Below, one piece after another: positions 16,755 to 34,936 of a DNA stretch of 64,000 nucleotides. Below the pieces are notes generated by a model, which had not been told where the DNA came from, did not search any database, and was given only the letters and a program-made list of their open reading frames with translations. The position numbers were made by a program, and so were the translations under genes. The stretch spans positions 248,001 to 312,000 of the forward strand of contig NZ_CP020371.1 of the NCBI RefSeq assembly GCF_002813775.1. Direction: 5' to 3'. Position 1 is the first letter of the stretch. Each line of letters begins with the position of its first letter. This DNA is from Candidatus Thiodictyon syntrophicum (GTDB lineage: Bacteria > Pseudomonadota > Gammaproteobacteria > Chromatiales > Chromatiaceae).

Positions 16755-16768
16755 CGTGGCGGTGTACG

Positions 16769-18511: not shown

Positions 18512-19787
18512 TCCCGCGGCGGCCCCGTGCCGCCCGTGCGGGCCTCCTCCCCACACCGCCCAAGGTCCCGACCCGTCACCGCGCTGGGGCGTGGGCGCGC
18601 ACGGGCAGGCAGACGTCATCCCAGCTTGCTACTGGCGGCTCGCCCGCTCCGCCAACAGCGACAACGGCGGGCCTTGGGTTCGCCAATGACGCGGGGCTCC
18701 CACGCTACCGGAACCGCGCTCGGCATTCATGCAGCCTTGCCGGAAGGACACGAGCTTCTCGGCCGCGTCTTGGCAGGCCCGGTACCTACGGAAGCCGTAA
18801 GAGTTTGGATCTGCTGTCGTTTCGGCAATTGGCTCCAATGCTAACAGGTAAAGAGCCTGCATGGCCCTATCCTTCATCGTTGGAATCCCTAATGGACGCT
18901 TCTTTCCGTTTGCCTTCGGGATAAGCACCCTCCGCAGCGGTTGAGGCTTGTACCCCCGCCGCCGCAGTGACATGACCCCTCTGGCCTTTGATTCCGGGTT
19001 GCGCCATACAACCTTGTCAACACCCGGAGTCTTCTTTCCCTTGTTTGCGGTCACTCGTTTAACCGCGATGGCCTTACCCGCGAACGAATGGGTTAAGAGC
19101 CAGCTTAGGGCTTTCACCTTGTTCCAGCGCCCTTCCTTTACTGCCTTTGCAATACGCGCTTGCAGCCGACGTACCGTTTGGTGAGCTTTGACCCAATTGA
19201 TGTCGTGCCAGCCCACTTCGCAGTCGGGGGCTGCACCAATAGCAGATGCTATCGTCATTTGCTTTGCCCCGTTGTTTCGGTTCTACAAATTCTCTTGCAA
19301 TCCAAGACCAGTCGGAAGTCTGCCCTCTTTCGAGTGGAATAATGTTTCAACCCCTATCCAGGCGGTTACGGCCCGGCATTCGCTTTCTCCGACATCCTAT
19401 ACCCGCATGTCCAACAGCCTCTCTGATGATTGGCCTGCCCTTGCGGGCGAAGATACGGGTTTACCATGTTCCGCTTTGGTGACGACGAGAGTTTAGGTGC
19501 CAGCTTTCTCCCGGTGGATCGCCATCTTCGCTTGACAACCATTCAGTGCCAAGACCTGTCCACTTACCATTTTGGTCACTGCCTGTCAGCATCTTTGGCA
19601 GTTTCGAAATAACGGGATTTACCACTGATTCACATAGGTTCACCATACTCTCAAGCCTAGCCCCCTAACGCACGATGCTAGCGTCGTTGGTTCGCCCTCG
19701 CGGGTTCGCCTTCTCCCTTACGGGATGGGTTACATTGTCAGAGCAGCTTCACACGGATTCGTTACCGATTCCGCGTGTGCCCTTAGT

Positions 19788-21319
19788 TCTACTTTGTTAA
19801 CTTGAATTCTGGCCGCTTTTCAACTAGCCTGGCTAGGCTATCTTGTAACGCCGCTCGATATCGCTACGCCGTTGATCATGCCTGACCGCCATTTGTGCAA
19901 TACGCTTTTCAACCATAGCCTCATCCTGCGTTAGTAACGCGATAATCATCAGCCGAACGTCCCGGCAGCTTAATAAAGGGTATTCAAGTTTGTGCGTAAT
20001 ACGCTCTTTTACGATAAAGGAGAGTGAGAGCATGACAAGTGCCATATGATGGTGCCAGGCATTCCATTTCCTAACTTGATAATCAGACATCCCGATTTCG
20101 GATTTAGCCTCCTGAAAGGCACGCTCCACCCAATATCGTTGGGCTTGCATGTATGCTAGCCTTTCAATCGGTGTCTCCATGTAGTCAACGTTGCTTAGCG
20201 AGTATTTGATCTTATTGTCGGCCAGATTTCGGCTTATTACCAAGACTCGCTCTATTGCACGATCACCTTTGCCATCCCAGACCCACACTCTTTCCGCATG
20301 AATTGAGAGCGTCAACGGCCCCTTAACCGCATCGCGAACTGTAACGTTTCGCCATGCATGAGAACTTAGAGAAGTGCCATAGTTCTTCACCGTTATGGGA
20401 TCTATATCTGTTTGTGGCTTCGTCGGTTGGCGACCCGGCCCAGGCTTCTTCTCAGGAACTGAAATCGTTGGTTCAACGGTATAAATTAGCTGATTGCAAT
20501 GAACGTCGAAAACAAACGTTAAGCCCATGTTATCTATAGCATTACTTAATTCCCATCCATGTCCGTAGACGCCGTCTCCACCGACCCAGCCAAATTCCAC
20601 GCCTGCCGCCATATCTGCTGTCACCATATCGAGCGCCAGTTCCAGCTTGGTCTTGAAAGCACGCGCGTCAGGAGGTATGCCCGCTCTTTCACAACGCTCT
20701 GGATTGCTGGTCCATGACTCTGGTAGAAAGAGGCGACAGTTAACCAACGTGCTGTGACACTGCCAAACTAAGCTCGCGTAGACGCCAACCTGGCAGTTAT
20801 CCACTTTTCCGACCACCCCAGCATATTGTCTGGAAACACCCGCCGAATAGTTGCCTTTCTTTAGATGTGCGGATTCGTCAATAATATAACCGACGTCACG
20901 AGAGCGATAGTCGTGTTGGTCGGCATACAGATCAGATGTATTTTGGGCAACTAAGCGCATGACTCTCTCTGAAGACCAGGGGGAATCCGTGATAAAGTGT
21001 TGAAGCTGCTGATAGCTGTTATCCGGCATCTCGATCTCTTCGTTAAGGCGTTCGATGTTACGCTTACCAGACTCTGTTTTCAGAAGGCCGTTGATGTAAC
21101 CTCGACATAACTCATAACCATCGGAAGTTTTGGTCAGAAAGCATTCATGATAGCCTTCAAGATGATTTGATAGATGCTTTACTATCCTTTTCAAAGCATA
21201 GTCCGGTTGACCATAGTTTGTTTTATTCACCAGGCTTCTCTTACACGCTCCGAATATATTTTTACCGCTGCTAAAATTATATCAAATTCAATGGCCTATT
21301 GCAATTTAACAAAGTAGAA
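19788..21319 (-). mobile_element. IS701-type insertion sequence (1,532 bp)
   Basis: The ends are TTCTACTTTGTTAACTTG on the left and its near-perfect inverse on the right (17 of 18 bases). The flanking tetranucleotides are TTAG and CTAG, consistent with the 4-bp CTAG-like duplications of the IS701 group. The element is markedly more AT-rich than the window average, pointing to recent arrival from another genome. It splits the 5' RNA part of the group II intron. Confidence 0.85.
19833..21230 (-). CDS. IS701-family transposase
   Basis: The 465-residue DDE transposase shows YIIDESAHLKKGNYSAGVSR near residue 115, GVEFGWVGGDGVYGHG near 213 and VERAFQEAKSEIGMSDYQVR near 375, the DDE blocks of the IS701/IS4 superfamily. 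The frame is complete and is the only gene of its element. Codon use is far more AT-rich than the neighbours. Confidence 0.9.
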   Translation of the reverse strand: MNKTNYGQPDYALKRIVKHLSNHLEGYHECFLTKTSDGYELCRGYINGLLKTESGKRNIERLNEEIEMPDNSYQQLQHFITDSPWSSERVMRLVAQNTSDLYADQHDYRSRDVGYIIDESAHLKKGNYSAGVSRQYAGVVGKVDNCQVGVYASLVWQCHSTLVNCRLFLPESWTSNPERCERAGIPPDARAFKTKLELALDMVTADMAAGVEFGWVGGDGVYGHGWELSNAIDNMGLTFVFDVHCNQLIYTVEPTISVPEKKPGPGRQPTKPQTDIDPITVKNYGTSLSSHAWRNVTVRDAVKGPLTLSIHAERVWVWDGKGDRAIERVLVISRNLADNKIKYSLSNVDYMETPIERLAYMQAQRYWVERAFQEAKSEIGMSDYQVRKWNAWHHHMALVMLSLSFIVKERITHKLEYPLLSCRDVRLMIIALLTQDEAMVEKRIAQMAVRHDQRRSDIERRYKIA

Positions 21320-21342: not shown

Positions 21343-21792
21343 TCACACAACAAAGCGACTTTCATGTCGCACAAACGGGATGTCGTCATCGTAGAACGGC
21401 GCCGGCTCCGACTCAACTGGGGGCACCGGGTCCCGCGCCGGTTCGCCGTGACCCTGCGAGCGTGCGCCGCCGGTCGGCTTGGCGGACGTTGTCACCACCA
21501 GCGAGTCGCACAGCATGGCCCAGGACTCGCGCGGCTCGCCGTCCACGGGGGTATAAACGCCGCGCGTCATGCGCCCCAGGGCGGCGACCATTTGTCCCTT
21601 CTGCGCCCGCTGCAAGGTCTGCGCGGCGGCACCAAACGCGAGGAGACCCACCCATAGGGTTTCCGGCGCCGCCGCATCCCGGGGCGTGACATCGACGGCG
21701 ACCTGGACCGTGGTCATGTCCTTACCGCTCTTGGTGGTGCGGGCCACGGGATCGCCACCCAGGCGACCGTACAAATTGGCGATCAGGCTCAT
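21343..21792 (-). CDS. ssb: Single-stranded DNA-binding protein with intron-disrupted C-terminus
   Basis: This 149-residue OB-fold protein (MSLIANLYGRLGGDPVART, TVQVAVDVTPRD, LWVGLLAFG) is of the type carried by conjugative elements. The disordered tail ends in the acidic tip DDDIPF, which in SSB normally is the very C-terminus and binds partner proteins. Here the frame continues for nine residues (VRHESRFVV) before a stop. Those nine codons are the first bases of the group II intron, so the intron entered right before the stop codon. With the intron unable to splice, the tip would be masked. The gene is oriented opposite to the traF operon. Confidence 0.9.
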   Translation of the reverse strand: MSLIANLYGRLGGDPVARTTKSGKDMTTVQVAVDVTPRDAAAPETLWVGLLAFGAAAQTLQRAQKGQMVAALGRMTRGVYTPVDGEPRESWAMLCDSLVVTTSAKPTGGARSQGHGEPARDPVPPVESEPAPFYDDDIPFVRHESRFVV

Positions 21793-21989
21793 GGGGTGGG
21801 CTCCTTGGTTGACGGCGCTCTTTGGTGATTCGTGCCCAGCCCCTTGAAACTGGGGGCGCGGCAGTGGGATCTGAACAGTGAGAACGAGGCCCTGGCGCCG
21901 CTCGCGCCGGGCGAGACCTCCTCGCGCGGTATTCAGCCACGGTTGAGGGTCGACGGTGGAGCAGCGTCAGGAACCTTGCGGCCGGGTGC

Positions 21990-22690
21990 CGGGCTCCAGG
22001 ACCGCGTGACGGCCGCGCCGCCTGTGAGGACCTGACCAGGCGTTGCCGGTATCGCCGGCGGACCGCTCCCGCGAGCGCGCCCGCGGCCACCGACCTGCAG
22101 GAACATGGGGCCTGACCTGACCCTCCTTGCCGCCCGCTCCGGCGCGGTGGACCCGGCGTTGGTTGGACAGGGCGGGCGGCGATTTGGTCCTCACCCGGCG
22201 CGGCGTGACCATGACCGGCAGGTGATAGACCAGGTCGCGCATCACCTCGAAGGCGGCGGAACCTGGGCCGACGATGATGCCGGCGCGAATCCCGGTCACC
22301 GGTACCCGCCCCCGGCGCAGCACCTCGCCGGTCTCCCGGCGGGAGACGATGTGCTCGGAATCTGCGTCTTTGGGGACCAGGCCGCCCAGGTAGCAGACCC
22401 GCTCCACGCCGGTCCTCGCCGCCGCGGCAGCGAAACGGGCCGCGGCCCGCAGGTCCAATTGGCCGGAGTTGCGGCCTGCGTCCATGGAGTGGACCAGCTA
22501 GTCGGCGATTCCGACGCCCTCCAAGGCGACGGGAAGGTTCTCGGGGTTCAGGGCGTCCGCCACCACCACCGCACCGCGCCAGCCCCGCGCCTCCAGCACC
22601 CGGGGCTGGCGGGAGGAGACGCGCACCGGCACCCCCGCCGCGAGGAGCCTGGGGACAAGATGGGTGCCAAGGTAGCCGCGACCGGGACCG
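21990..22690 (-). pseudogene. NAD(P)-binding SDR/NmrA-type gene remnant
   Basis: Reading leftward, the frame shows a Rossmann start VGPGRGYLGTHLVPRLLAAG, then VADALNPENLPVALEGVGIA. A stop codon TAG at 22498-22500 replaces an expected tyrosine-like codon. The frame resumes with LVHSMDAGRNSGQLDLRAAA, ERVCYLGGLVP and MRDLVYHLPVMVTPRRVRT before similarity fades. The beginning overlaps the 3' end of the sulfatase gene in another frame, so that end is probably a deletion joint. The family is extended SDRs of the DUF2867-associated type. Confidence 0.7.
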
Positions 22691-24350
22691 ACCGGCCTGA
22701 GTCGAAGGCGCGCAACAGCATTCCCGTCAACTCCGGCAGGCCGCCCAGCGCCGGCCGCCGCGGTGTGAGTTCGGGGGTGAAGCCCTGCGCGACCAGGGCG
22801 TCGCGCACTGCCGTGCGCCCCGTGATCAGGTGCACCGGGACCTCCCAGGTTGCACCCTCGCCGCTCACCGCGGCCGCCGGCTGATGGTCCCCCAGCACCA
22901 GCAGCACCAAGTCCAGGTCGGGCCTCAGTCGCAGCCAGCCCGCCAGCACCTTGAACAGGTAAGCGAGCGAATCCGCATAAGCCGGACCGAGGTCGGTGAG
23001 GTCGGGCCGTTGCGCAAGGGCCGCGGTGATCTGCGCGGGCTCAAAGGGATTTGCTGTCAGCATGCGCCCCCAGTCCGGCTGGTAGGGCGGGGTAGGACTG
23101 AAGGGGATGTGGGAGTTGATGGTGGGAAAGACCGCAAGGCGGGGCCGGCCGTCCGCGCTGGTCAGGTCGGCATCCAGTCGGGCCAGGGCGAACTGGTCCG
23201 GGATGCGCCACCAACCCAGGGCCGGACCCCGATAGTCCAGGGCCGCTGCACCCAGGATCGTCGCGTATCCATAGAAGGCCCCCTCGGGCCAGGCCTGGCG
23301 CAGCCCCGGCATGACCGCCAGGGTGCGGTAGCCGGCTTGGGCGAAGCGGTGGACCAGCGTTTCCCTCCGCTGGGTCAGCAGCAGATCGTAGTCGGCGCCC
23401 TCGGCCACCTCCACACCGGAGAGGAGGCTGGCGTGGGCGAGCCAGGAACTGCCCCCGAAGGTCGGGGAGCGGACGAAGGCCGAGACCGCCCCGCGCCCCG
23501 TCTGCGCCACCGCGCCCGCCAGGTCGGCCCGGCTGGCGGCAAGGGCCCGGGCGAGGCGCGGCTGATCGTAGGTCACCGCGCCGTAGGACTCGGCAAACAC
23601 CATCACGACATGGGCGCCCTGCACCTGCGCCAGGTCCGACTGCATTGGCGGACTCGGCGGCAGCGCGCGCGGCCCCGTCCCCAGGGCCTTGAGCACGAAG
23701 GCGGCCTGCTGGGCATAGGTCTTGGTCACCGGGAGCGAGAAGGCGTACTCCCAATCCACGCGCGGGCTCAGCACCCCGGCCAAGTAGGCGGCGGCCACGG
23801 CACCGCAGAGCACCGTCAGGACCCGGCGCGGGGCGGGCTGGCCGACCGCAGCGCCGACCTGCCGCAGGGCCCAGCGCAACAGCGCATAGACGATCCCCAA
23901 CAGGAGCGCCAGACCAAGCGCGCCGCCGAGCACCAGGGGCACGGGCGCCGCCTCGATCAGCATGGCCGCCACCCCGGGCAGGTGCCGGGCATCCCAGAAG
24001 AGATTGATGGGGCGGCCGTAAAGGGCCGGGGCGGTGACCGCGGCGTAGCGCCCGACCGCCAGCAGGGTGAGGAGCACGGCGAGCCCGGCCAGCAGGCGCC
24101 GGGAGGGCGGGCCCCAGACCCGTGCACCCAGTGCAAGCGCCAGCACCAACAGGGCGATCTCCGCGGACAACTCGCGGCGGACTTCCACCCAGGGAGTCGG
24201 CCAGTGGTTCTGGAAGCTCAAGGCGGTGTTGAGCAGCACGAGCGCGGCAACCAGGGCCAGCCAGCGCCATATGGCCGGCCGCCGCGGTTGGGAACCGGCC
24301 TGCGCGCTACCGCGATCCGGCATCGATCGCTGCCCCACGCTCGTGCGCAT
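22548..24350 (-). CDS. Membrane-anchored sulfatase/phosphoglycerol-transferase-like protein
   Basis: This 600-residue protein has several N-terminal membrane segments (about 27-45, 62-80, 86-110, 130-160, 175-195) and a C-terminal alkaline-phosphatase-superfamily domain facing the periplasm. Visible blocks are VVMVFAESYGAVTYDQP, SAFVRSPTFGGSSWLAHASL, the histidine loop FPTINSHIPFSP and LVLLVLGDHQPAA, as in LtaS/MdoB-type enzymes that move phosphoglycerol-like groups. The usual nucleophile Thr may be the Ser/Thr of SPTFGGSSW. The last 50 residues after LLRAFDSG are out of family and overlap the SDR remnant, so the natural stop was lost. It is the last large gene of the leftward operon. Confidence 0.75.
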   Translation of the reverse strand: MRTSVGQRSMPDRGSAQAGSQPRRPAIWRWLALVAALVLLNTALSFQNHWPTPWVEVRRELSAEIALLVLALALGARVWGPPSRRLLAGLAVLLTLLAVGRYAAVTAPALYGRPINLFWDARHLPGVAAMLIEAAPVPLVLGGALGLALLLGIVYALLRWALRQVGAAVGQPAPRRVLTVLCGAVAAAYLAGVLSPRVDWEYAFSLPVTKTYAQQAAFVLKALGTGPRALPPSPPMQSDLAQVQGAHVVMVFAESYGAVTYDQPRLARALAASRADLAGAVAQTGRGAVSAFVRSPTFGGSSWLAHASLLSGVEVAEGADYDLLLTQRRETLVHRFAQAGYRTLAVMPGLRQAWPEGAFYGYATILGAAALDYRGPALGWWRIPDQFALARLDADLTSADGRPRLAVFPTINSHIPFSPTPPYQPDWGRMLTANPFEPAQITAALAQRPDLTDLGPAYADSLAYLFKVLAGWLRLRPDLDLVLLVLGDHQPAAAVSGEGATWEVPVHLITGRTAVRDALVAQGFTPELTPRRPALGGLPELTGMLLRAFDSGRSVPVAATLAPILSPGSSRRGCRCASPPASPGCWRRGAGAVRWWWRTP

Positions 24351-24407
24351 CGCCCACCCCGCCTGGGTCCCGGCCGCGCTGGTGCATTTGCGGTGTGTCC
24401 CGCGGGG

Positions 24408-25145
24408 TCATGGCGTGCCTCCGGTGGGCGGGTCCAGGCCAGCCTGCCGGGCGAGCCGGAGGGTGTCGACGGCGAACGAGTAACAGAGCAACGCCAACCC
24501 GACGGCCGCCACCGCCGCACTCCAAACCGGGGGGAGGAGCGGTGCCAGGGCCAGGGTGAGCGTCAGCACCTGAACAACGCAGATCGCCTGCCGCCGCCGA
24601 CTGGGGGGCAAGGGATGCCGCAGCATGGGCCACCGGTAACCCGCCGCCACGAACAGGTAGCGCAGCAACCCCGCGGCCAGCACCCAGGGCCCGGCCTTGC
24701 CCAGTGACCACACGAGGATCGCCAGCACCGCCACCAGCAAGGCGTCCACCTCCATGTCGAAGCGTGCGCCGAAGGGGCTCGCCCAACCCCAGCGCCGCGC
24801 CAGGTGTCCGTCCAACCCGTCGAGTCCCGCGGCTGCCAGGGCCAGCAGCAGGGCCGTCCAGGCCACCGCCGCAGTTCCGACCTCCCCCACCAGGCCAGCC
24901 AGCAGGGCCGTGAGGACGGCGCGCACCAGGGTCACCTGATTGGCCGGGCCGCAGCGCACCTGCGGCCGGTGCAGGGGCAGGAAGGCGGCCATGATGGCCA
25001 GGACCAGCCCGAAAGCCGCGAGCGACTTGATGAGGAAGGCGTCGCCAAGGCCGAGCGCGGTGTCCAGACCCGACCCGAGCGCGATGAGCAGCAACAGCCC
25101 GGCGAGGCCGTTGCGCACGGCGCTGCCAGTGAGCCCCGCGCTCAA
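24408..25145 (-). CDS. CDP-alcohol phosphatidyltransferase family protein
   Basis: A polytopic membrane protein of about 245 residues with the full CDP-alcohol phosphotransferase signature, D-G-x2-A-R-x8-G-x3-D-x3-D, in LDGHLARRWGWASPFGARFD followed by MEVD. This motif binds CDP and two metal ions. The substrate alcohol cannot be read from sequence. A TTG start overlapping the RibD-like stop (TTGA) is proposed, since no ATG lies near and the first membrane segment starts soon after. Its place between a reductase and an LtaS-like enzyme suggests assembly of a polar lipid or lipid-linked product. Confidence 0.75.
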   Translation of the reverse strand: MSAGLTGSAVRNGLAGLLLLIALGSGLDTALGLGDAFLIKSLAAFGLVLAIMAAFLPLHRPQVRCGPANQVTLVRAVLTALLAGLVGEVGTAAVAWTALLLALAAAGLDGLDGHLARRWGWASPFGARFDMEVDALLVAVLAILVWSLGKAGPWVLAAGLLRYLFVAAGYRWPMLRHPLPPSRRRQAICVVQVLTLTLALAPLLPPVWSAAVAAVGLALLCYSFAVDTLRLARQAGLDPPTGGTP

Positions 25146-26116
25146 CGAACCCGAGTGATCGGGGCCTCGCAGTCCCACTCGCCCTCCCGCCTGATCCGCC
25201 GTGGCTCGCAATCGAACAGGATGTCCTCCCCCATGCGGAAGATGCGGCAAGGGGGGCGCATACAATCACCCAGGGACCTCGTGGCGGGGAGGGTGACCCC
25301 GCGGCGCCCCTCGCCGATGAACAGCGGTGCCACCGTGACCTGTAACCGATCCAGGAGTCCGGCACGCAGGAAGGCGGAGACGGCGATCCCGCCCCCCTCG
25401 ATGAAGACCCGGCGCAGCCCGCGCCGATGCAGTTGTGCCAACAGGGGGCGAAGCTCCAGGCGCCCGTCCAGCACTGGAGCCCCGATCACATCGGCCTGGC
25501 CGTGACGGCCGGACCCGGTCAGTGCGTCTTCACAGACCACCAGGGTCGGTGCAGCGCCGTCGCTGAAGACCCGCCGGTCCACGCCAAGCCGACGGCTGGG
25601 GTCAAGCACCACGCGCACCGGGCTATCGCCGGGGACCAGCCGGGTGGTCAGCCGCGGGTCGTCGGCAGCGACGGTTTCTGCCCCGACCAGGACCGCGTCG
25701 CACAGGGCCCGCATGCGGTGCAGATGCAGGATGTTCGCGGGGCCGGTGACGAAGCAGGAATCGCCCCGGCTGGTGGCGATATAGCCGTCCAGGCTCTGCC
25801 CCAGGTGACCAACCGTCAGGGTTGGATGGGTCTCCTGCGGCAGGATCGGCAGATAGAGATCCAGCAGGTCCCGGATCCCGGCCGGGCACCCCGGTGCCGC
25901 GGCCCAGCCGTCGCTGGGGCACCAGCGCAAGAGCGCATCGCGGCTGTCCAGCTCCACCGTCCGCAGCCCCGCCGCGGCGGCGGTGAAGGCGGTCGTCCGG
26001 GGCGGCAGGGGACCTGAGCGCGCCAGGCGGGAGGCGGCCAGGATGGCCGACCAGGCGACCGTTTCACCCCGCGGATGCGCGGGCTGGGGTAAGGGGGCAA
26101 GGCGGGCTGGCTGCAT
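25142..26116 (-). CDS. RibD C-terminal-type (dihydrofolate-reductase-like) reductase
   Basis: The protein has about 324 residues. From residue 100 onward it is a RibD_C reductase, with TVGHLGQSLDGYIATSRGD, VGAETVAADDPRLTTRLV and RVFIEGGGIAVSAFL, the NADPH-binding and substrate-loop blocks of riboflavin-pathway pyrimidine reductases. The first 100 residues are a separate poorly recognised part with no deaminase zinc motif, so it is not a full RibD. Within this operon, with a PTPS-like enzyme, reduction of a pterin- or pyrimidine-like intermediate is the natural guess. The start is the ATG of MQPARLAPL. The gene overlaps the CDP-alcohol gene by 4 bp. Confidence 0.8.
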   Translation of the reverse strand: MQPARLAPLPQPAHPRGETVAWSAILAASRLARSGPLPPRTTAFTAAAAGLRTVELDSRDALLRWCPSDGWAAAPGCPAGIRDLLDLYLPILPQETHPTLTVGHLGQSLDGYIATSRGDSCFVTGPANILHLHRMRALCDAVLVGAETVAADDPRLTTRLVPGDSPVRVVLDPSRRLGVDRRVFSDGAAPTLVVCEDALTGSGRHGQADVIGAPVLDGRLELRPLLAQLHRRGLRRVFIEGGGIAVSAFLRAGLLDRLQVTVAPLFIGEGRRGVTLPATRSLGDCMRPPCRIFRMGEDILFDCEPRRIRREGEWDCEAPITRVR

Positions 26117-26198
26117 TAGTGGTCCTGACGTATCAGCCGCCCGTGGGGCCGGTCTGCAGGTCGACTCCATTGGAAACGGGCCAGGCCCAGTGACCGGC

Positions 26199-26756
26199 TC
26201 AACCGAACAGGCTCATCCGCGCCATCACCCGGTCGCGCTTGACCAGCCAGTGTCGCAGCGCGCCGGCGACGTGCAAAACGATAAGACCGAGGATCGCCCA
26301 GCCGACCACGCCGTGGACAAAGAACAGGGTCTCGCTCTGCGCCTGGTCCTTGCCGATGAGTCCAGGCAGGGTCCAACCGAAGAATTGCACCGGGTAGCCG
26401 CCCGCCGCCGTGGCAAGCCAACCGATGACCGGCATGGCCACCAGGGCGACGTAGAAGAGGCCATGGACGACGCGGCTGGCGACGTGTTCGGACGTCGCCA
26501 GCGGCGGCCGATAGGGTGGCGCGCCAAGGCTGACCCTGAGCCCGAGGCGCAGGATCATCAGGGCCAGGATCATGACTCCGAAGGTCTTGTGGTAAGCGTA
26601 CAGGGCGTTGGTTGCTGCGCCGCCGAAGGTCTCCTTGACCCCGTCGAAGCCGAGGAATCCCAGGGTCATGCCGATCGCCAGGACGCCCAGCACCAGGATG
26701 ACGATCAGCCAGTGCAACAGGCGCTGCACCAGGGGATAGCGGTCGGTCTCAATCAT
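26199..26756 (-). CDS. Cytochrome b561-family membrane protein
   Basis: The 185-residue protein has four membrane helices and the histidines that hold two b-hemes: RLLHWLIVILVL near the N-terminus, YHKTFGVMILAL, RVVHGLFYVALVAMPV and FFVHGVVGWAILGLIVLH. A C-terminal RHWLVKRDRV follows. It is expected to pass electrons in the cytoplasmic membrane, often from or to quinone. The start is MIETDRYP. It is the only redox membrane protein in the operon and may supply electrons to a partner enzyme; this is inference. Confidence 0.88.
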   Translation of the reverse strand: MIETDRYPLVQRLLHWLIVILVLGVLAIGMTLGFLGFDGVKETFGGAATNALYAYHKTFGVMILALMILRLGLRVSLGAPPYRPPLATSEHVASRVVHGLFYVALVAMPVIGWLATAAGGYPVQFFGWTLPGLIGKDQAQSETLFFVHGVVGWAILGLIVLHVAGALRHWLVKRDRVMARMSLFG

Positions 26757-26877
26757 GATTCCCCTCGTTGGCCCACGCGGCGCGCTCGGCTGAACGCCAG
26801 CGCTAGAACTGGTTACCGGTTTGCGGCTTTCAACCTTCACCGCTCCCGGCTGCCGGAACCCGGCAGCGCCTTTGAAA

Positions 26878-27804
26878 TCATTTGGGCAGCAGCAGGGCGT
26901 CCTGGTGACCCACCCGGATGCGCGAGCGCCGGCCATCGATCCCGGCCTGCCGGACCGCTCGCCACTGTTGGATGGATGCCTTCAGCGCCTTGCGCTGCGA
27001 GCCCGGGTGCGCGTCGGTCTGTGCCAGCGCGGCGGCGGCCCAGCCCTCCGTCAGGGCCGACTGGATCCCGGTTTCATGGGGGTCAAGCAGCCAGTCGCTA
27101 TCCGCCAGCTCCACCGAAAACCCCATCGCCTCCGCCAACTGCGCCAGCCGTACTGTCGCGCCGGGCCCGAGGGCGGGACCAAACCCCTTGTCGCGACGTT
27201 GGTGGGTGTTGACGAGGCCGATGACGCGCGGGTCGAGGGGGTGCCCAGGCTCGATGACCACCCGACCGTCGTAGGTCAAGGCCAGCAGCAGGGGCGCACG
27301 GGCGGCATGACAGCGCCCGATCAGACCCGCGAGCCAGGGCTCGGAGACGAGATCCAACAGCGCCGAGGCGGTTACCAGGGTCCCGCGGTCGAGGTCGAGG
27401 GCCGCGGCACCGCGCGCCAGATCGAGCGTCCGGGTGTGAATCTCCCAGGGAGGCGCTGGCCCCTGGATGCGCAGCCCGTCGGCCTGCGCAGCAGTCGGCA
27501 GACCCAGGCCGCCCGCCCACTCGGCAGTCCGGCGCGGCAGGGCGGCGAGCAGCTCCCGGTCCCGGTCCAGACAGATCCAGCGCTGTGGCACGTTCAGGCA
27601 GGGCGAAAGCCGTGGGGCCAGATAGCGCAGATTGGCCCCGGCGCCGCAGCCCAGGTCCAGCACGGTCAGGGGTGCCGTCGGATTGTCGGCCTGTTGCGCG
27701 CGCTGCGACAGCCAACCGGCAAGGCGCTGCACCAGGTGCGCGCAGCGGGCGCGGGTATCGGCCGCCTCGCGCAGGGCCAGCCAGTCCGCGCTGAAGTCAC
27801 CCAC
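26878..27804 (-). CDS. Class I SAM-dependent methyltransferase
   Basis: The 308-residue protein has the SAM-binding motif I TVLDLGCGAGANLRYLAPRL, the acidic loop ICLDRDRELL, a motif around LVTASALLDLVSEPWL, and LLALTYDGRVVIEPGHPLDP. It lacks further domains. A GTG start overlaps the glycosyltransferase stop by 8 bp, showing translational coupling. The substrate is unknown; from context it may methylate the small molecule or glycoside made by this operon. Confidence 0.85.
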   Translation of the reverse strand: MGDFSADWLALREAADTRARCAHLVQRLAGWLSQRAQQADNPTAPLTVLDLGCGAGANLRYLAPRLSPCLNVPQRWICLDRDRELLAALPRRTAEWAGGLGLPTAAQADGLRIQGPAPPWEIHTRTLDLARGAAALDLDRGTLVTASALLDLVSEPWLAGLIGRCHAARAPLLLALTYDGRVVIEPGHPLDPRVIGLVNTHQRRDKGFGPALGPGATVRLAQLAEAMGFSVELADSDWLLDPHETGIQSALTEGWAAAALAQTDAHPGSQRKALKASIQQWRAVRQAGIDGRRSRIRVGHQDALLLPK

Positions 27805-28882
27805 GCCGGACCTCCTCGCAGGCGGCAGCGAAGGCGGCAGCGAAGGCGGCGGCGGCCTGCGGCCAGGTCGGGAGCCGCAGACCGGCGGCGCGGGACCCGG
27901 CGGCGAGCCGGCGGCGCAGGCCCGCATCCGTCAGCAGCCCCCGCAGCGCCGCGGCGAGGGCCGCGGGGTCGTCCGGCCGGACCAGGACGCCGGCCCCCGG
28001 AGGGACGGTCTCGGGCACCGCGCCGGACCGGGCAGCCAGAATCGGCACACCCCGGGCGAGGGCCTCCGCAAAGACCATCCCGTACCCTTCGAACCGGCTG
28101 GCCAGCACGAAGAGGTCGGCCTGCGCATAGTGCCGATTGAGCTCCCGCCGCGCGAGGACTCCGCGGAAGCGCACCCGCGCGCGCAACCCCAGGTCGTCGC
28201 GCAACCGCGGCAGGGTGCCGGACCATGCGGGGTCCCGGTCGGTGGCGCCGACGCAGTCGAGTCCCCAGGGGAGGTCGGCAACCTCCGCCAGCGCCCGCAG
28301 CAGGACATCATGGCCCTTGCGCGGGACCAGGGCACCGACGCTCAGGAGGCGCGGCTGACCATCCGGCGAGCCCAGGGCCGCCGGTGCCGGGTCCGTCCCG
28401 GGCTCCACCACCCGGATGCGCCCTGCCGACACCCCGTACGCCGCGAGCAACCGCGCAGTGAAGCCGCTGGTGACCAACACCAGCCGCGCCTGGGCCAGGG
28501 CGCGGGTCTCGGCTTGGCGCAGCGCCGCGGCCCGTTCGGGCGGGACCCCGGTTTCTTCGGCCAGGGGGTGGTGGACCAGGGCCACGAGCCGGAGACGCTC
28601 GCCCTGCGCCTGCGCCAGCTCGGGGAGTGCGCCGAAGGCGAGCCCGTCCACGACGGCGAGGGCCGCATCGGGGATGGACGCAAGGACCGCTTCGGTCTGT
28701 CTCAGGGCCGCCTGGGTCGGCACCGGAAAGCTCGCGTCCAAGACACGATGCTCTACCCGCCAGCCCAGCCCGGCCAGGCCGGCTATCATGCGCCGGTCGT
28801 AGCCATAGCCCCCGGTGGGGGTGTCGAGGTCCCCGGGGATCAGGAACCACAGGCGCCGGCGCGCGGCAGTGGGCGGGTTCAG
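27797..28882 (-). CDS. GT4-family glycosyltransferase
   Basis: The GT-B protein begins with [20 protein letters not shown], the usual N-terminal loop of retaining GT4 enzymes. It continues with [32 protein letters not shown] and the donor-binding EX7E block [20 protein letters not shown]. The conserved N-terminal loop lies upstream of the first ATG (28789), so the true start must be further out. The only candidate near the PTPS stop is a CTG in a CTGA overlap, which is chosen with low certainty. The Ala-rich C-terminus carries a short repeated [10 protein letters not shown] stretch. Confidence 0.8.
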
Positions 28883-29283
28883 ACCGGCAGCTCCGCCTCG
28901 TAGGCCGCCCAGGCGAGGTGCGACTCGCGCAGGACCACCCGCAGGGAGCCGAGGCCCCGGGCGGCATCGCCCAGCTCACCGGCGCGGATGCGCGCGACCA
29001 GGCCCTCGAAGATCTGCCGTGCCATGAATTCGGTGGTGGTGTTCTGGCCCCGAAGATCCGGGTGCTCGTCCAGGTTGCGGTAGTCGAAGGTCGCCAGGAC
29101 CGCGCGCAGGGCTTGGCTGGCGAGGCCGATATCGACCACCAGGTTGTCGTGGTCCAGTTCCGGTCGGCGCAGTTCCAGGTCCACCACATAGGTGGCGCCG
29201 TGGAGCCGCTGGGCCGGGCCGAAGACCTCACCGCGGAGGCTATGGGCGATCATGACGTGATCGCGTACGCACAGGCTGTACAT
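28879..29283 (-). CDS. 6-pyruvoyl-tetrahydropterin synthase/QueD-like protein
   Basis: The 134-residue protein has the T-fold layout of PTPS/QueD: a first histidine in MIAHSLRG, a second block [15 protein letters not shown], the acid region [20 protein letters not shown], and [10 protein letters not shown] followed by [15 protein letters not shown]. In PTPS the metal is held by three histidines, two of them in an HGHNY-type motif. Here that motif reads HGATY, so one zinc ligand is missing, and no catalytic Cys is seen near the first His. It may act on another substrate or with altered metal binding. It is 12 bp after the dehydrogenase gene and overlaps the glycosyltransferase frame. Confidence 0.8.
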
Positions 29284-29295
29284 GGGCGTCGTCCT

Positions 29296-30324
29296 CTATG
29301 AGTAGCGAATGCGGTGCATCAGGGTGTCGCCGGGGTCGCGGGCCAGGCGCGCCTGGACCGCCGGCAGGTCGTCGAAAGCGTCCTCGCCGGTGATCAGCCG
29401 ATCGAGGACCGGGTCCGCCAGCAGCGACAGGGCCAACGCCATGCGCCGGCGATGGTCCCAACGCGCCCGCTGGGCGGTGGCGACGCTGCCGACCTGGGAC
29501 GAGCGGATGGTCAGCCGGCGCCGGTGGAAACCCTGGCCCAGGGGGAGTGGGACCTCGCGCGTTCCGTACCAACTCAACTCCAGCACGGTCGCCTCGAATC
29601 CCGCGATCCGCAGGCCCTGCGCCAGACCCGCCGGGGCACCGCTGGTGTGGATGACCAGGTCCGCGTCGGGGGTCGCCTCCGGCGGCCCCGCAAACCCGAC
29701 CCCGAGGGCGGCGGCGATGGGGGCACGCCGGGGGTTCAGGTCGATCAGCTCGACCTGGCAGCCGGGGATGCGTCCCGCCAGCCAGGCGACCAGGCAGCCG
29801 AGGGTGCCGGCACCGATGACGGCGATCCGCTCCCCGAGACGGGGGCTGGCGTCCCAGAGCCCGTTGACCGCGGTCTCCAGGTTCGCGGCGAGCACCGCGC
29901 GCCCCGTCGGTACCTGTTCCGGTAGGAGGTGGAGCGCCGCCGCCGGGACCCGGTAGCGGGTCTGGTGCGGATGCAGGCAGAAGACCGTCCGCCCCAGCAG
30001 GTGCGCGGGGCCTTCCTCCACCACGCCGACGCTGCAGTAACCGTACTTGACCGGCCCGGGGAAGTCGCCAACCTGGAACGGCGCGCGCATGGTCTGGTAC
30101 TCACTCGGCGGTACCTCACCGCGAAATACCAGGGACTCGGTCCCGCGGCTGATGCCGCTGTAGCGGGTGCGCACCAGGGCATCCCCGGGGGCGGGGTCCG
30201 GCAAGGGTTCCCGGCGCAGCTCGCCCCGGCCGGGCTCGGTCACCCAGAAGGCGCTGGCCTGTCCCGGGGGCGGCGTCAGCCCAGCGGGTGAGCATGTGGG
30301 TCCTGTCTGTCGTCGATCGGTCAT
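29296..30324 (-). CDS. MDR/zinc-type alcohol dehydrogenase-like protein
   Basis: This 342-residue medium-chain dehydrogenase/reductase begins a GroES-like fold with [20 protein letters not shown]. It has the coenzyme Rossmann motif [18 protein letters not shown] near residue 160 and the strand [12 protein letters not shown]. The usual catalytic Cys and His zinc ligands of classical alcohol dehydrogenases are not evident; the block reads [14 protein letters not shown]. It is the first gene of the leftward operon, and the ATG (MTDRRQT) is set by comparison with the second broken copy near 53 kb, which shares this start. Confidence 0.82.
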   Translation of the reverse strand: MTDRRQTGPTCSPAGLTPPPGQASAFWVTEPGRGELRREPLPDPAPGDALVRTRYSGISRGTESLVFRGEVPPSEYQTMRAPFQVGDFPGPVKYGYCSVGVVEEGPAHLLGRTVFCLHPHQTRYRVPAAALHLLPEQVPTGRAVLAANLETAVNGLWDASPRLGERIAVIGAGTLGCLVAWLAGRIPGCQVELIDLNPRRAPIAAALGVGFAGPPEATPDADLVIHTSGAPAGLAQGLRIAGFEATVLELSWYGTREVPLPLGQGFHRRRLTIRSSQVGSVATAQRARWDHRRRMALALSLLADPVLDRLITGEDAFDDLPAVQARLARDPGDTLMHRIRYS

Positions 30325-30686: not shown

Positions 30687-31766
30687 ATGACCGTGCAACC
30701 ACAGCCCCCTTTAGCCCGACTCCATGACGAGATCGACGCGCGTGTGCGAGACATCCGGGGGGAGCATCCCGACTGGCCGTGCGGCAAAGGCTGCGGTAAT
30801 TGTTGCCGGACGCTCGCCGACGTACCCCAACTCACGGCCGCGGAATGGGACCTGCTGCGCGCGGGCCTCGCCGCGCTCGCGCCGCAACCGTTGCGGGAGA
30901 TCCGCCGGAACCTGGCGGCCTTGGTTGGCCAGCGGTCACGACCGGTTGTCTGCCCGCTCCTGGACCGGACGTCCAACGCCTGTCTGGTCTATGCCCAGCG
31001 TCCGGTGGCCTGCCGCACCTACGGCTTCTATGTGCAACGTCACCTGGGGCTCTATTGCCATGGCCTCGAAGCCCGCGTCGCCGGCGGCGCCTTGGCAAAC
31101 GTGGTGTGGGGCAACCACGCTGCCATTGATCGCCAACTCGCCGACCTGGGCGAGCCCCGTGCATTGACCGAGTGGTTCGAGCAATGGATAGCCGAGATTG
31201 CGATAAAGAAAGGACATCAGGATTTTGTGGCCATAGTTACGGGTCGCAGTAACGATGAGATCCAAGTGCTTGGGGTGCTGAAGGATCGTAGCAAACAGAC
31301 CGTAAAGGAATTCTTCTCAAGTATTCCCAAGCGGTTACGAATATCTGTGCGGTACGTCTGTTCCGATATGTATGATGGTTTCATCAATGCCGCTAAGGAA
31401 GTGTTCGGGAAAAAAATTCGGATCGTTGCGGACCGCTTTCATGTCGCTAAGCTCTATCGTGAAGGACTCGAGAATCTACGCAAGAAAGAATTGAGACGTC
31501 TTCAGCGAACACTTTCGGCAGTCGATTACAAGAAATTAAAAGGTGCAATGTGGGCGTTACGTAAGAAAGAAGCAGATTTGACAGACGAGGAAAAAGCGAT
31601 CCTGGAAAAACTGTTTGAGTATTCGCCGCGATTGAAGCAAGCTCATCTATTTCGTAACCAACTGACAGCGATCTTCGATAAACATATTACCCGAGCCCAG
31701 GCGAAGCATCTACTCAATGGTTGGGCGGCCCGTGTCAAGCGTAGCGAGGTTCGCTTTTTTGGATGA
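30687..31766 (+). CDS. YkgJ-family cysteine-cluster protein fused in frame to an ISL3 transposase fragment
   Basis: Residues 1 to about 165 are a YkgJ-type putative zinc/iron-chelating protein: CGKGCGNCCRTLADVPQLTA, VCPLLD, CLVYAQRPVACRTYGFY and LYCHGLEA. From about residue 168 the frame runs directly into an ISL3 transposase, with IAIKKGHQDFVAIVTGRSND, VCSDMYDGF and IRIVADRFHVAKLYREGLEN, up to RVKRSEVRFFG. Base composition drops from GC-rich to clearly AT-rich at the joint near 31190. The transposase part lacks its N-terminal third, including the first catalytic Asp, and its end. So this is a chimera made by IS insertion and deletion. The YkgJ part is nearly complete. Confidence 0.85.
   Translation: MTVQPQPPLARLHDEIDARVRDIRGEHPDWPCGKGCGNCCRTLADVPQLTAAEWDLLRAGLAALAPQPLREIRRNLAALVGQRSRPVVCPLLDRTSNACLVYAQRPVACRTYGFYVQRHLGLYCHGLEARVAGGALANVVWGNHAAIDRQLADLGEPRALTEWFEQWIAEIAIKKGHQDFVAIVTGRSNDEIQVLGVLKDRSKQTVKEFFSSIPKRLRISVRYVCSDMYDGFINAAKEVFGKKIRIVADRFHVAKLYREGLENLRKKELRRLQRTLSAVDYKKLKGAMWALRKKEADLTDEEKAILEKLFEYSPRLKQAHLFRNQLTAIFDKHITRAQAKHLLNGWAARVKRSEVRFFG
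31190..31762 (+). mobile_element. Internal fragment of an ISL3-family element
   Basis: Only the middle of the transposase gene is left, with no terminal inverted repeats at either side. It joins the YkgJ-like gene on the left and the livF gene on the right, where livF starts 4 bp before the chimeric frame ends. The fragment marks a deletion joint. Confidence 0.8.
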
Positions 31767-32714: not shown

Positions 32715-34493
32715 TCAATGATCGAATTGCAGCCGTAGCTGGGCGCGGCCATCGCGTTCACCCTGATCGACGCGATCGGCCAGTTTTTGGATCAGCATCC
32801 CGGGCAGCGTCGCCATGGCCTCAGCGAGCGCCGCATCATCCGCGTCGGCGTCCATGAGTGCCTGCCAGTCGACCGCTTGGGGCGCGGCAAACTGGATGCC
32901 TGGGCCAGGATAGTCCAGCGTCAGAATCAACTTGTACTCGTCAAAACTGGCCAACAAGCGCGCCGGGCCCGCGAGCGCCCGGGCCTGGTTAAGGGTCTCC
33001 AGTGCCTCGCCCACCGCGGTACCGGCGCGGGCGATGACCTCCGGGCGCGCCCCCCAGTCCGCCCCGCAGTCTTCAAGAAACCGAGTTGCCTGCGGACCCG
33101 GCCGCGCTTGGTCCAGCAGGAGTTCACGGGAACGGGAGACGCCGATACGGAAGAGCAGATTCAACCCGATCGCAACCATGGTCCCGACCACCAGCCCCGA
33201 ACCGAGAATGGGTTTAAGCTCCGGGGATACCGACGCCGTCAGTCCCGGGACCATGAACACCGCCGTACCAGCGGCCAGACCCAGTCCGACGACCGCTTGC
33301 CGCCGACTGTTGAGCATCCGCGACATAATCAATTGCGCGCCGGAGACCATCACGTAGCCTGCGGTATAAATCAGGATGGCACCGACGACGGCGGGCGGCA
33401 GCAGGATGATGAACGTGGCGATCTGGGGCAGGCAGGAAATCGCGATGAGCAGCACGCCGGTCACCATTCCCGCGCGCCGTGCGGCGACCCCGGTCATATG
33501 GGCGAGGCCGAGGTTGGCCGAGGAGATGCAAGTGGTTAAGGTGCCGGCGAGGCCGCAGACGATGTTGCACAGTCCCATGCCGTTCAGCAAACGGCCGATC
33601 ATCGGGAGATCAGGACGCCGCCATTTTTCATTATTCATCTTGTCAATCACCACCCCGCCCCCCACCGCGTCGACGGCATTGATCACGAGGACCAGAACAA
33701 GGGGGATGATCGCCGCCGGAACCCAGGTGGGCGTTGGCGGGATGTAATTGCCAACCGGTAGCGAAAGCGGCGGCTGGATCGCGACCTTGGCCATTTCTGC
33801 GGCGCCAAAGTCGCCGGTCAGTACCGCCACGAACATCCCCGTCGCGGCACCGATGATCAGGGCCAGCACACGAAGGCGGGCCCCCGTCCAGACTGAGACG
33901 GCGACCAATGATCCCAGGGTGGTCGCAGCGATCAGTATTGACGTTGGAGCGATGCCACCGCGCTCGAGCCCGATAGCGCGTTCTACGCCACCCGGGATCA
34001 GGCTCATGCCGAGCAGGACCAACAGCGTTCCGGTCACCTCGGGCGGAAAAAGGACTTGCAGCCGGGGCAAAAAACGTCCCAGCCCAATAACGACGATACC
34101 CCCTGCCAAGAGGCCGCCCGCCGCGGCACTCGGGCCATGGGCGTTGGTCACAGCGATGAACGCCATCATCGTAAAGGGGTCCGGGATATGCACCAAGAGG
34201 TGGCCCGCGCTGACCCGGGTGGTCAAACTGTTCAGCAGGGTACCAAGACCCATGACGACCACCGACAGGGATACGAAATCCCGCAGCGGCGCGTCCGCAA
34301 GACCGATGCCTTTGCCGGCAATAACGACATAGATCAACAGCATCAGTGCCACCAGCATATGCTGTATACCCACTGCCAGAACCGTGGGTAGGGGCGGTGT
34401 TTCCTGGGCGATATACAGCATATCGCGAGGCCTCTCCCGCTTTGCGTCAACAAAGGGAGGCAGAACACGATCGAAATGCTTTCTCCAGTTCAT
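32715..34493 (-). CDS. NCS2 (NAT) nucleobase permease with C-terminal HATPase-like domain
   Basis: The 592-residue protein has about 12-14 membrane helices over residues 30-440. It shows the NAT family QH motif (GIQHMLVALMLL, first helix) and signature NLGLAHMTG after SSA, as in xanthine and uracil permeases. Unlike ordinary members it carries about 140 extra cytoplasmic residues: FLEDCGADWGARPEVIARAG, VGEALETLNQ, LASFDEYKLILTLDYPG and LIQKLADRVDQGE. These have the rhythm of an RsbW-type HATPase but lack the N-box Asn and glycine loops. The start is MNWRKHFDRV, shared in style with the divergent paralogue. It is transcribed away from that paralogue. Confidence 0.85.
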   Translation of the reverse strand: MNWRKHFDRVLPPFVDAKRERPRDMLYIAQETPPLPTVLAVGIQHMLVALMLLIYVVIAGKGIGLADAPLRDFVSLSVVVMGLGTLLNSLTTRVSAGHLLVHIPDPFTMMAFIAVTNAHGPSAAAGGLLAGGIVVIGLGRFLPRLQVLFPPEVTGTLLVLLGMSLIPGGVERAIGLERGGIAPTSILIAATTLGSLVAVSVWTGARLRVLALIIGAATGMFVAVLTGDFGAAEMAKVAIQPPLSLPVGNYIPPTPTWVPAAIIPLVLVLVINAVDAVGGGVVIDKMNNEKWRRPDLPMIGRLLNGMGLCNIVCGLAGTLTTCISSANLGLAHMTGVAARRAGMVTGVLLIAISCLPQIATFIILLPPAVVGAILIYTAGYVMVSGAQLIMSRMLNSRRQAVVGLGLAAGTAVFMVPGLTASVSPELKPILGSGLVVGTMVAIGLNLLFRIGVSRSRELLLDQARPGPQATRFLEDCGADWGARPEVIARAGTAVGEALETLNQARALAGPARLLASFDEYKLILTLDYPGPGIQFAAPQAVDWQALMDADADDAALAEAMATLPGMLIQKLADRVDQGERDGRAQLRLQFDH

Positions 34494-34936
34494 CGGAGTC
34501 TCGTTCGTTCGGGGCCAACAGTGGCCCAACATTGTGCCGCCACCCGCCGTCCCCCAAGGTCACCGCACGCACGCGCGGGTATGCTGGCGTGTGCAATCTC
34601 CTCCAACTCGGGGCGGTCTCAGCAGTGCCGCTGCCGGCGGGTGGGATTGCAGCCCCTCGTGGTCGTGCTTGCGGCTGAGACATACTTGACCGATCATACC
34701 ATCCTTGGCCGCTGCGGCCAGCGGTTCCCGCGGCCAAGCAAAACCGCACTGCGAACAAGTTATCAAAATGCAGAACGCAGACCCACCGCCAGCAGTCGTC
34801 AACAACATTTTATTCGCAATGTCGGGCGGCCGCGCAGGGATTGCACCCGAACGCCCTCGCGTTGTCCGCAAGAGCAGTGGACGAGCGGCCGTGCCGGACC
34901 TGGGCGCTCGACGCGATGATTACCCCGAGACCTGAC
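34494..34936. promoter_or_regulatory. Divergent promoter region between the two permease genes
   Basis: These 443 bp must carry both permease promoters. No guanine/xanthine-type riboswitch core and no clear operator was seen. A GC-rich inverted stretch around 34711-34735 (GGCCGCTGCGGCC, then GCGGTTCCCGCGGCC) could form a hairpin. No gene is supported. Confidence 0.45.

Follow-up and report, generated by a model that had tools for sequence, protein, structure and literature searches.

Within the window, the stretch of 64,000 nucleotides from Candidatus Thiodictyon syntrophicum analyzed here, eight minus-strand genes were found at 22548-30324, each a single open frame and several overlapping. 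The first encodes an MDR-type dehydrogenase resembling BchC and threonine dehydrogenase (29296-30324), with all profile matches below cut-off, and is followed by a PTPS/T-fold protein of the SCO6650 type with an HGATY motif (28879-29283; Pfam PTPS, 1.9e-22) and a GT4 glycosyltransferase (27797-28882; Glycos_transf_1, 3.2e-29), whose probable CTG start overlaps the PTPS stop. A class I SAM-dependent methyltransferase with a GTG start (26878-27804; Methyltransf_23/25, below cut-off), a cytochrome b561 (26199-26756; 2.9e-27, scanned as a longer frame to 26936, with a probable ATG at 26756) and a RibD_C/DHFR-like reductase (25142-26170; RibD_C, 1.2e-39) come next. The last two genes encode a CDP-alcohol phosphatidyltransferase (24408-25145; CDP-OH_P_transf, 1.8e-16, scanned as a longer frame to 25265), whose probable TTG start at 25145 overlaps the RibD stop, and a membrane AlkP-superfamily transferase resembling LtaS, EptA and BcsG (22548-24350; Sulfatase, 4.6e-05, under the Pfam cut-off). 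The final ~40 codons of this LtaS-like frame overrun out of frame into a remnant NAD(P)-binding (SDR-like) gene, and conservation of the protein stops near position 22700. With the chosen starts, the intergenic gaps from the first to the last gene were 12, -4, -8, 121, 28, -4 and 57 bp; an earlier note had described most of the genes as overlapping or 2-20 bp apart, which held for four of the seven junctions but not for the gaps of 121, 28 and 57 bp. A near-identity search of plasmids, possibly excluding the window's own record, gave no match.

The eight-gene operon proposed in that note was borne out by the shared strand and by the recurrence of the neighborhood, and it is almost certainly one functional unit. 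We compared the best 80 of at least 583 relatives, ranked by their similarity to the PTPS-like protein of the window; 33 of these loci were shorter than 20 kb, so absences among the 80 are uncertain, and the 47 full loci were used for co-occurrence statistics. Among these best 80 of at least 583, fetched via the PTPS-like gene, GT4 genes occurred in 78, methyltransferases in 75, dehydrogenase relatives in 74, RibD-like genes in 61, CDP-alcohol genes in 56, AlkP-superfamily genes in 26 and cytochrome b561 in 4 (L017, L069, L086 and L087, with Pfam confirmation on L086). The same loci contained GTP cyclohydrolase II (28/80), creatininase (30/80), OpgG (14/80) and OpgH (20/80), and YceI and an LPG-type membrane protein were further recurrent partners; in relatives, YceI, the LPG-type protein and the OpgG/OpgH genes extend the set beyond what the note could see. 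Fusions within the best 80 of at least 583 tie the operon parts together: GT4-methyltransferase in 16 loci, CDP-alcohol-YceI in 3 (L023, L037 and L084), CDP-alcohol-AlkP in 2 (L017 and L063) and creatininase-RibD in 1 (L093). Additionally, in a second Contendobacter cluster, ADH adjoins the CDP-alcohol and AlkP genes. In the 47 full loci, Fisher P values, which ignore kinship, ranged from 0.004 to 0.03 for most gene pairs and reached 5e-6 for FkbM-OpgH and 5e-8 for GTP cyclohydrolase II-creatininase. Of 398 genomes sampled from the phylum of the window, 27 (own genome counted) carried the cluster, which was further seen in Streptomyces, Amycolatopsis, Gemmatimonadota and an Acidobacteria MAG. 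This conservation across several phyla is far above chance, and a chance neighborhood was rejected.

The PTPS-like protein matched PDB 3d7j (SCO6650 of Streptomyces coelicolor), released in 2008 and titled a PTPS homologue, over its whole length with a profile E value of 2.8e-59. Its model (pLDDT 89.6) placed 3d7j at Foldseek rank 1 with 60% identity and also matched QueD and PTPS structures, and it was weakest (pLDDT about 70) at residues ~11-30, the motif region. SCO6650 belongs to the same subfamily, with an HGAT motif and, in the printed alignment, GPAQ where PTPS has Cys. Like PTPS and QueD, the window protein has the T-fold, the first part of the HGH motif and the Thr-Thr-Glu motif, which is conserved in its relatives; only PTPS and QueD, however, keep the catalytic Cys and a complete His zinc site. 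Ala24 and Ala30, present in 81/81 sequences, align in the printed alignment with the Cys and the second HGH His of 1b66, which we take to be the catalytic residue and a zinc ligand, respectively, and the LDH-motif His is replaced by Tyr, Phe or Leu in 77/81. E120, presumably at the position of the pterin-anchoring Glu of PTPS, was found in 81/81 sequences, the printed 1b66 alignment stopping before it. An ordinary PTPS or QueD enzyme was rejected on these residue losses.

The best PDB match of the RibD-like protein was 6p8c (E 1.5e-28), named a diaminopyrimidinone reductase, and it shares the RibD_C domain with RibD and archaeal-type diaminopyrimidinone reductases, but it carries ~100 extra N-terminal residues and lacks the deaminase domain and the LDGK lysine. 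That lysine, seen in both 6p8c and 2azn, is replaced in 60/61 RibD-like sequences (Tyr in the window protein; Lys in 1/61), while the EGG glutamate is kept in 61/61, one further row being gapped in both counts; we take the two to be functional residues of RibD-type reductases. Ribosyl reduction by this protein is therefore doubtful. Profile matches of the dehydrogenase to BchC (1.4e-12) and to ADH_zinc_N (4.8e-4) fell short of the cut-off, and from a reading of residue conservation over 74 sequences the protein apparently lacks the usual zinc ligands.

The CDP-alcohol protein carries a readable DG..AR...G...D...D motif (DGLDGHLARRWGWASPFGARFDMEVD), presumably the conserved catalytic motif of CDP-alcohol phosphatidyltransferases, and its only matches, which were weak, were cholinephosphotransferases. 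The AlkP protein was modeled as membrane helices plus an AlkP-superfamily domain with a phospho-head-group-transferase fold; transferases of the LtaS, OpgB, GacH, BcsG and EptA type gave the best rows in VIA-align, with sulfatases within 3 Z units of the best row, and phmmer against PDB sequences gave no match. Sequence identity to these transferases was 10-18%, but their architecture and Glu/Ser/His/Asp-His pattern are common to the window protein, in which E254, S302, H414, D488 and H489 were invariant in 17/17 sequences; we take these to be the Thr/Ser nucleophile and the Glu/Asp/His metal ligands of LtaS/EptA-type enzymes. Unlike its counterparts, the window gene is linked to a CDP-alcohol enzyme. 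Formylglycine sulfatases have C/S-x-P-x-R at the active site; the Cys form was absent from 17/17 AlkP sequences, and the few S-x-P-x-R strings lay at residues 9, 20, 172 or >550, far from the active site. A true sulfatase is thus disfavored, though not disproved, by the sub-cut-off Pfam score, the missing Cys motif and the phosphotransferases as closest folds, with sulfatases within 3 Z. We regard the protein as a putative phospholipid head-group transferase, a predicted fold not in itself showing function.

The lipid genes form a module separable from the core. In eight of nine genomes that had full flanks and no local CDP-alcohol gene, no close CDP-alcohol relative was found elsewhere in the sequence, whose completeness is not stated (five without a match at 1e-5 and three with weak matches only, E 6e-7 or worse), which suggests that lipid attachment is optional and not essential to the pathway. 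The AlkP gene was missing from 22 of 38 full loci with a CDP-alcohol gene.

The recurrent YceI, LPG-type and OpgG/OpgH partners point to the periplasm as the destination, YceI being a lipid-binding periplasmic domain. A Pfam scan found neither OpgG nor OpgH in the window operon, and the genome's OpgG (C1:3075888-3077336) and OpgH-like gene (C1:3077917-3079683) lie on another replicon. Of 25 genomes with the cluster, 11 lacked OpgG, including three with an OpgH-like gene inside the cluster; these 25, the window's own included, were hand-picked, and the choice was partly informed by where OpgG was present. In the 47 full loci, OpgH and AlkP genes tended to exclude each other (AlkP in 1/15 OpgH loci versus 15/32 others), and OpgH and CDP-alcohol genes showed no association (Fisher P 1.0, kinship ignored), which argues against a simple rule in which AlkP decorates an OpgH glucan. 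On these three grounds, osmoregulated glucan as a general acceptor was lowered in our ranking. The OpgG, OpgH, YceI and b561-type genes also occur together in E. coli, where yceI is paired with b561-like yceJ near opgGH, but that stretch lacks the PTPS-GT4-methyltransferase-MDR core.

GTP cyclohydrolase II and creatininase as partners suggest GTP as the starting material. The window genome gave no creatininase match and only a distant match to GTP cyclohydrolase II. According to PMC7439116, the huimycin and toyocamycin pathways start from GTP with a PTPS-family enzyme, and huimycin adds a SAM methyltransferase and a glycosyltransferase to yield a methylated, glycosylated heterocycle. The likeness to the core lies in this logic and in the enzyme families; the route described there, however, begins with GTP cyclohydrolase I and runs through a functional 6-carboxytetrahydropterin synthase and two deazaguanine reactions that lead to preQ0, and huiA-G are described without MDR, RibD-like, CDP-alcohol or AlkP genes. 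No GTP cyclohydrolase I, working QueD or either deazaguanine enzyme was recognized within the window operon. Likewise, no lumazine synthase (RibH), riboflavin synthase (RibE), QueE or FolE was recognized by eye among 45 recurrent families, judged from the start of one sequence each (10 proteins scanned). The note knew of no described pathway with this gene set, and we found no recognizable description of the cluster in the open PMC literature, most subscription papers being outside this scope, so that absence is not proven. Of the two findings that the note had named as counting against its proposal, a neighborhood not conserved elsewhere was contradicted by the related loci, and a known pathway covering the set did not turn up in this literature.

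We interpret the locus as one form of a widespread two-module biosynthetic locus. The core module would comprise the dehydrogenase, PTPS-like, GT4, methyltransferase and RibD-like proteins, joined in many relatives by GTP cyclohydrolase II and creatininase, for which a housekeeping RibBA perhaps substitutes in the window genome. GTP would be opened to a diamino-oxo-pyrimidine nucleotide; this nucleotide would be reduced, then reshaped on the T-fold protein and oxidized or reduced by the dehydrogenase; methylation and glycosylation would give a soluble head group X, huimycin being a precedent for the logic. In the anchoring module, which the window has, the CDP-alcohol enzyme may join X to a presumed CDP-diacylglycerol donor, before or after glycosylation, and the resulting phosphatidyl-X would reach the outer face of the cytoplasmic membrane. 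There the AlkP-type enzyme would pass phospho-X to a periplasmic acceptor, perhaps OpgGH glucan in some lineages, as LtaS, OpgB, GacH and BcsG use phospholipid head groups. Derivation of X from GTP is probable and its linkage to lipid somewhat favored, while transfer to another acceptor is no better than possible; the complete sequence of core synthesis, lipidation and transfer is our best reading, offered tentatively. The GTP cyclohydrolase II, creatininase, YceI and CDP-alcohol fusion data agree with the note's guess of a glycosylated pterin or lipid-anchored cofactor, but the lipid part is detachable and the product putative.

If the core reading is true, an uncharacterized pathway exists in these 27/398 genomes and in other phyla, and GTP-derived ring chemistry would be joined to envelope lipids and perhaps glucans. 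We know of no pathway that makes such a link. SCO6650 (3d7j), known to us only as a single protein and without an assigned function, would gain a pathway context, as would proteins that are publicly annotated, probably wrongly, as 6-carboxytetrahydropterin synthase or sulfatase. More doubtfully, the locus may define a new phosphoglycolipid class with a GTP-derived pterin or pyrimidine head, spread over several phyla, carried or displayed in the periplasm by YceI-type domains and handed on to periplasmic glucans through an LtaS-like enzyme, so that a pterin bound to lipid or glycan would lie beyond the cytoplasmic membrane. The GTP-PTPS-methyl-sugar logic itself is already known from huimycin (PMC7439116).

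An unlikely alternative is that the pathway ends with the lipid: a phosphoglycolipid bearing a GTP-derived head would remain membrane-bound or travel through the periplasm on YceI, with AlkP adding phosphoethanolamine or phosphoglycerol to its sugar instead of removing X. The CDP-alcohol-YceI fusions, the lipid-head modification by EptA/MCR-type folds and the 22 of 38 loci without AlkP agree with it, but the CDP-alcohol-AlkP fusions suggest that AlkP uses the CDP-alcohol enzyme's product, and in some lineages the recurrent OpgG/OpgH partners hint at a glycan as acceptor. It is improbable, too, that the locus makes a redox cofactor or signal in the form of a soluble, glycosylated pterin-like compound, with b561 and YceI for electron transfer and the lipid genes as a separate adaptation: genomes that carry the core yet have no close CDP-alcohol relative, b561 in the window and four relatives, the E. 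coli yceI-yceJ pair and huimycin as a soluble product (PMC7439116) speak for it, whereas b561 occurs in only 4 of the best 80 of at least 583 loci, and the CDP-alcohol fusions and second Contendobacter cluster connect the lipid genes with the core. That the PTPS-like and RibD-like proteins have taken on a new role in making a sugar or cyclitol head, with no GTP-derived ring, is decidedly improbable; it would account for the lost active-site residues of both and for MDR, GT4, methyltransferase and CDP-alcohol chemistry typical of sugar-lipid heads, but not for the frequent GTP cyclohydrolase II and creatininase among the best 80 of at least 583, the creatininase-RibD fusion or the conserved Thr-Thr-Glu motif and E120. 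An alternative supply of riboflavin, folate or queuosine has very little probability, even though GTP cyclohydrolase II, RibD_C, creatininase (BrbF-type formamidase) and PTPS belong to the families of such pathways, given that RibH, RibE, QueE and FolE were not recognized by eye among the 45 recurrent families, and given the active-site losses, the constant GT4, methyltransferase and MDR genes and, as reported in PMC9478397, the failure of expressed homologues Oant_3869 (its cluster II) and Metdi4691 (its cluster III), which may or may not belong to the present locus, to relieve riboflavin auxotrophy. In the L009 locus, FolE2 and a PTPS with an intact motif lie next door.

The eight genes run on the minus strand from 30324 to 22548 and encode, in order, a medium-chain dehydrogenase (ADH), a PTPS-like protein, a GT4 glycosyltransferase, a methyltransferase (MT), cytochrome b561, a RibD_C reductase, a CDP-alcohol phosphatidyltransferase and an LtaS-like protein (AlkP), which ends at 22548. 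With the starts that we chose, the successive intergenic gaps are 12, -4, -8, 121, 28, -4 and 57 bp, the 121-bp gap lying immediately before the cytochrome b561 gene. The GT4 gene probably starts with CTG and the CDP-alcohol gene probably with TTG, each overlapping the stop of the preceding gene. That the eight genes form one unit is near certain. The earlier note had proposed a gene-neighborhood search for co-occurrence of these families, and the neighborhood proved to be conserved. A scan of named GTDB genomes yielded at least 583 relatives of the PTPS-like protein, and the best 80 were kept for locus counts; GT4 was present in 78, MT in 75, ADH in 74, RibD in 61, CDP-alcohol in 56, AlkP/LtaS-like in 26 and cytochrome b561 in 4 of these 80 loci. 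Where the flanks were complete (47 loci), every locus had GT4 and MT, 46 had ADH, 44 had RibD and 38 had CDP-alcohol. Gamma-, Beta- and Alphaproteobacteria supplied most of the best 80 of the at least 583 relatives; the others included Streptomyces, Amycolatopsis and Gemmatimonadota, and one MAG each of Acidobacteria and Nannocystaceae. Among them, the named relatives nearest to the window's PTPS-like gene were from Lamprocystis (83% identity), which makes a purple sulfur bacterium of the Chromatiaceae its probable host.

Counting the window genome each time, the PTPS-like gene was found in 6 of 38 relatives, 7 of 185 genomes of the class and 27 of 398 genomes sampled evenly across the phylum; in four of these 27 hits (G247, G251, G511 and G589) the matched range (query 1-133) contained a single TGA, which may simply be the natural stop. 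Four of the five other class loci fetched with flanks had ADH, PTPS and GT4 side by side together with RibD, CDP-alcohol or both, and the fifth (L009) had only PTPS-GT4-MT. The neighbors of its PTPS-like, GT4 and MT genes at L009:8845-10199 read, from their sequence, as a GTP cyclohydrolase of the FolE2 type and a PTPS whose HGH motif is intact. One locus (L017) held the window's own gene set rearranged, as cytochrome b561, RibD and a CDP-alcohol-AlkP fusion followed by ADH-PTPS-GT4-MT. A single Candidatus Contendobacter genome carried PTPS-GT4-MT (L036) and ADH-CDP-alcohol-AlkP (L115) as two separate clusters.

The first structural hit for the PTPS-like protein was PDB 3d7j (SCO6650 of Streptomyces coelicolor; 60% identity), which the family profile matched with an E value of 2.8e-59. 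The position of the PTPS catalytic cysteine and the second histidine of the HGH motif were both alanine in all 81 PTPS-like sequences, and the LDH histidine was tyrosine, phenylalanine or leucine in 77 of the 81; the protein is therefore not a working PTPS or QueD. The family has kept the Thr-Thr-Glu motif and E120, a putative pterin-anchoring residue, and the protein may still bind a 2-amino-4-oxo ring. The nearest match of the RibD-like protein was diaminopyrimidinone reductase, with the lysine of LDGK kept in only 1 of 61 sequences.

The simplest account of the gene set is a pathway of two modules. The core module (ADH, PTPS-like, GT4, MT and RibD-like) would convert GTP into a methylated, glycosylated head group, X; the CDP-alcohol enzyme would join X to CDP-diacylglycerol to give phosphatidyl-X, and the AlkP enzyme would hand on the phospho-head-group outside. 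CDP-diacylglycerol is the likely donor because the window's operon contains no CDP-sugar synthase. An origin of X from GTP is likely, and a lipid link in the window's form of the cluster is somewhat favored.

Further recurrent partners, which came to light only through comparison with the related loci, were counted in the best 80, with a Pfam run on representatives. These were an LPG_synthase_TM protein (31 of 80), creatininase (30), a RibBA-like GTP cyclohydrolase II (28), FkbM methyltransferase (28), YceI (25), OpgH-like proteins (20) and OpgG (14, one being a fragment, in L068). Fusions joined GT4 to MT in 16 of these loci, CDP-alcohol to YceI in three (L023, L037 and L084), CDP-alcohol to AlkP in two (L017 and L063) and creatininase to RibD in one (L093). 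The zinc cysteines were kept in the 28 GTP cyclohydrolase II sequences, and the tyrosine aligned with Tyr105 of an approximate E. coli reference sequence was kept in 27 of the 28, being histidine in Amycolatopsis. In SCO6655, a change at the equivalent place reportedly halts catalysis ahead of the deformylation step; this would leave a task for the creatininase. In the window genome, a search for creatininase gave no match and one for GTP cyclohydrolase II only a distant match. A creatininase-family protein has been shown to act as a formamidase on the GTP-derived pyrimidine, in a study that leaves a large clade of homologues uncharacterized (PMC9478397).

Five lineages have OpgH-like genes beside the locus, and fewer have OpgG there, which suggests a periplasmic glucan as a candidate acceptor in them. 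A version of the pathway in which lipid or glucan is universal is spoken against, because eight of nine genomes lacking a local CDP-alcohol gene had no close relative of it elsewhere, OpgG was missing from 11 of 25 chosen cluster genomes, and, among the 47 full loci, OpgH and AlkP genes occurred together in only one and OpgH was independent of CDP-alcohol (P = 1.0). In Marinobacter goseongensis (G197), OpgG fragments lie in the cluster (L068, near 17222), apparently a decayed copy, and a full-length OpgG is encoded elsewhere. In E. coli K-12 (1107500-1121500), about 4.5 kb separates the yceI-yceJ pair, of which yceJ is b561-like, from the opgGH end, an arrangement that echoes the cluster's partners.

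Searches of an open library containing 5.39 million papers found no recognized account of the gene cluster. The huimycin pathway uses GTP cyclohydrolase I, two deazaguanine steps and a PTPS-family 6-carboxytetrahydropterin synthase, together with a methyltransferase and a glycosyltransferase (PMC7439116). It shares with the proposed core the logic of a GTP ring plus methyl plus sugar, which is thus already known. However, the altered PTPS and the RibD-like, MDR and creatininase steps belong to the cluster and not to huimycin as described there, and the main difference is the cluster's lipid/periplasm module. A bolder reading is that the cluster makes a lipid- or glycan-bound class of pterin.

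The 64-kb window that holds the operon lies on contig C2 (416,864 bases) of a 7.74-Mb genome in three contigs. The conserved domain of the LtaS-like protein is complete, and the end of its frame overruns, out of frame, into what is left of an NAD(P)-binding gene that reads as SDR-like (21967-22690, minus strand). This remnant contains an internal stop, and the LtaS-like gene's own stop seems to have been lost at the junction. A 172-amino-acid piece of the remnant matched nothing in Pfam at 0.01. A gene for a single-strand DNA-binding protein (21343-21792, minus strand) and mobile-element debris (16595-21230) adjoin the operon, the latter comprising an IS66 transposase (16595-18511), what reads as an N-terminal reverse-transcriptase fragment of group II intron type (18629-19258) and a DDE_5 transposase (19833-21230). 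At 30687-31766 (plus strand), a CxxCxxCC-domain gene, apparently interrupted, is fused in frame to part of an ISL3 transposase. Close to the GTP-linked operon stands a divergent pair of xanthine/uracil-type permease genes (32715-34532, minus; 34841-36724, plus), a type not seen among the recurrent neighbor families of related loci. The G+C content is 71-73% in the operon (22001-30000) compared with 58-68% in the stretch from 30 kb on, but similar values (69-74%) recur in parts of 4-14 kb and 16-18 kb; third-position GC is 82-89% in the operon compared with 74-85% in three downstream genes.
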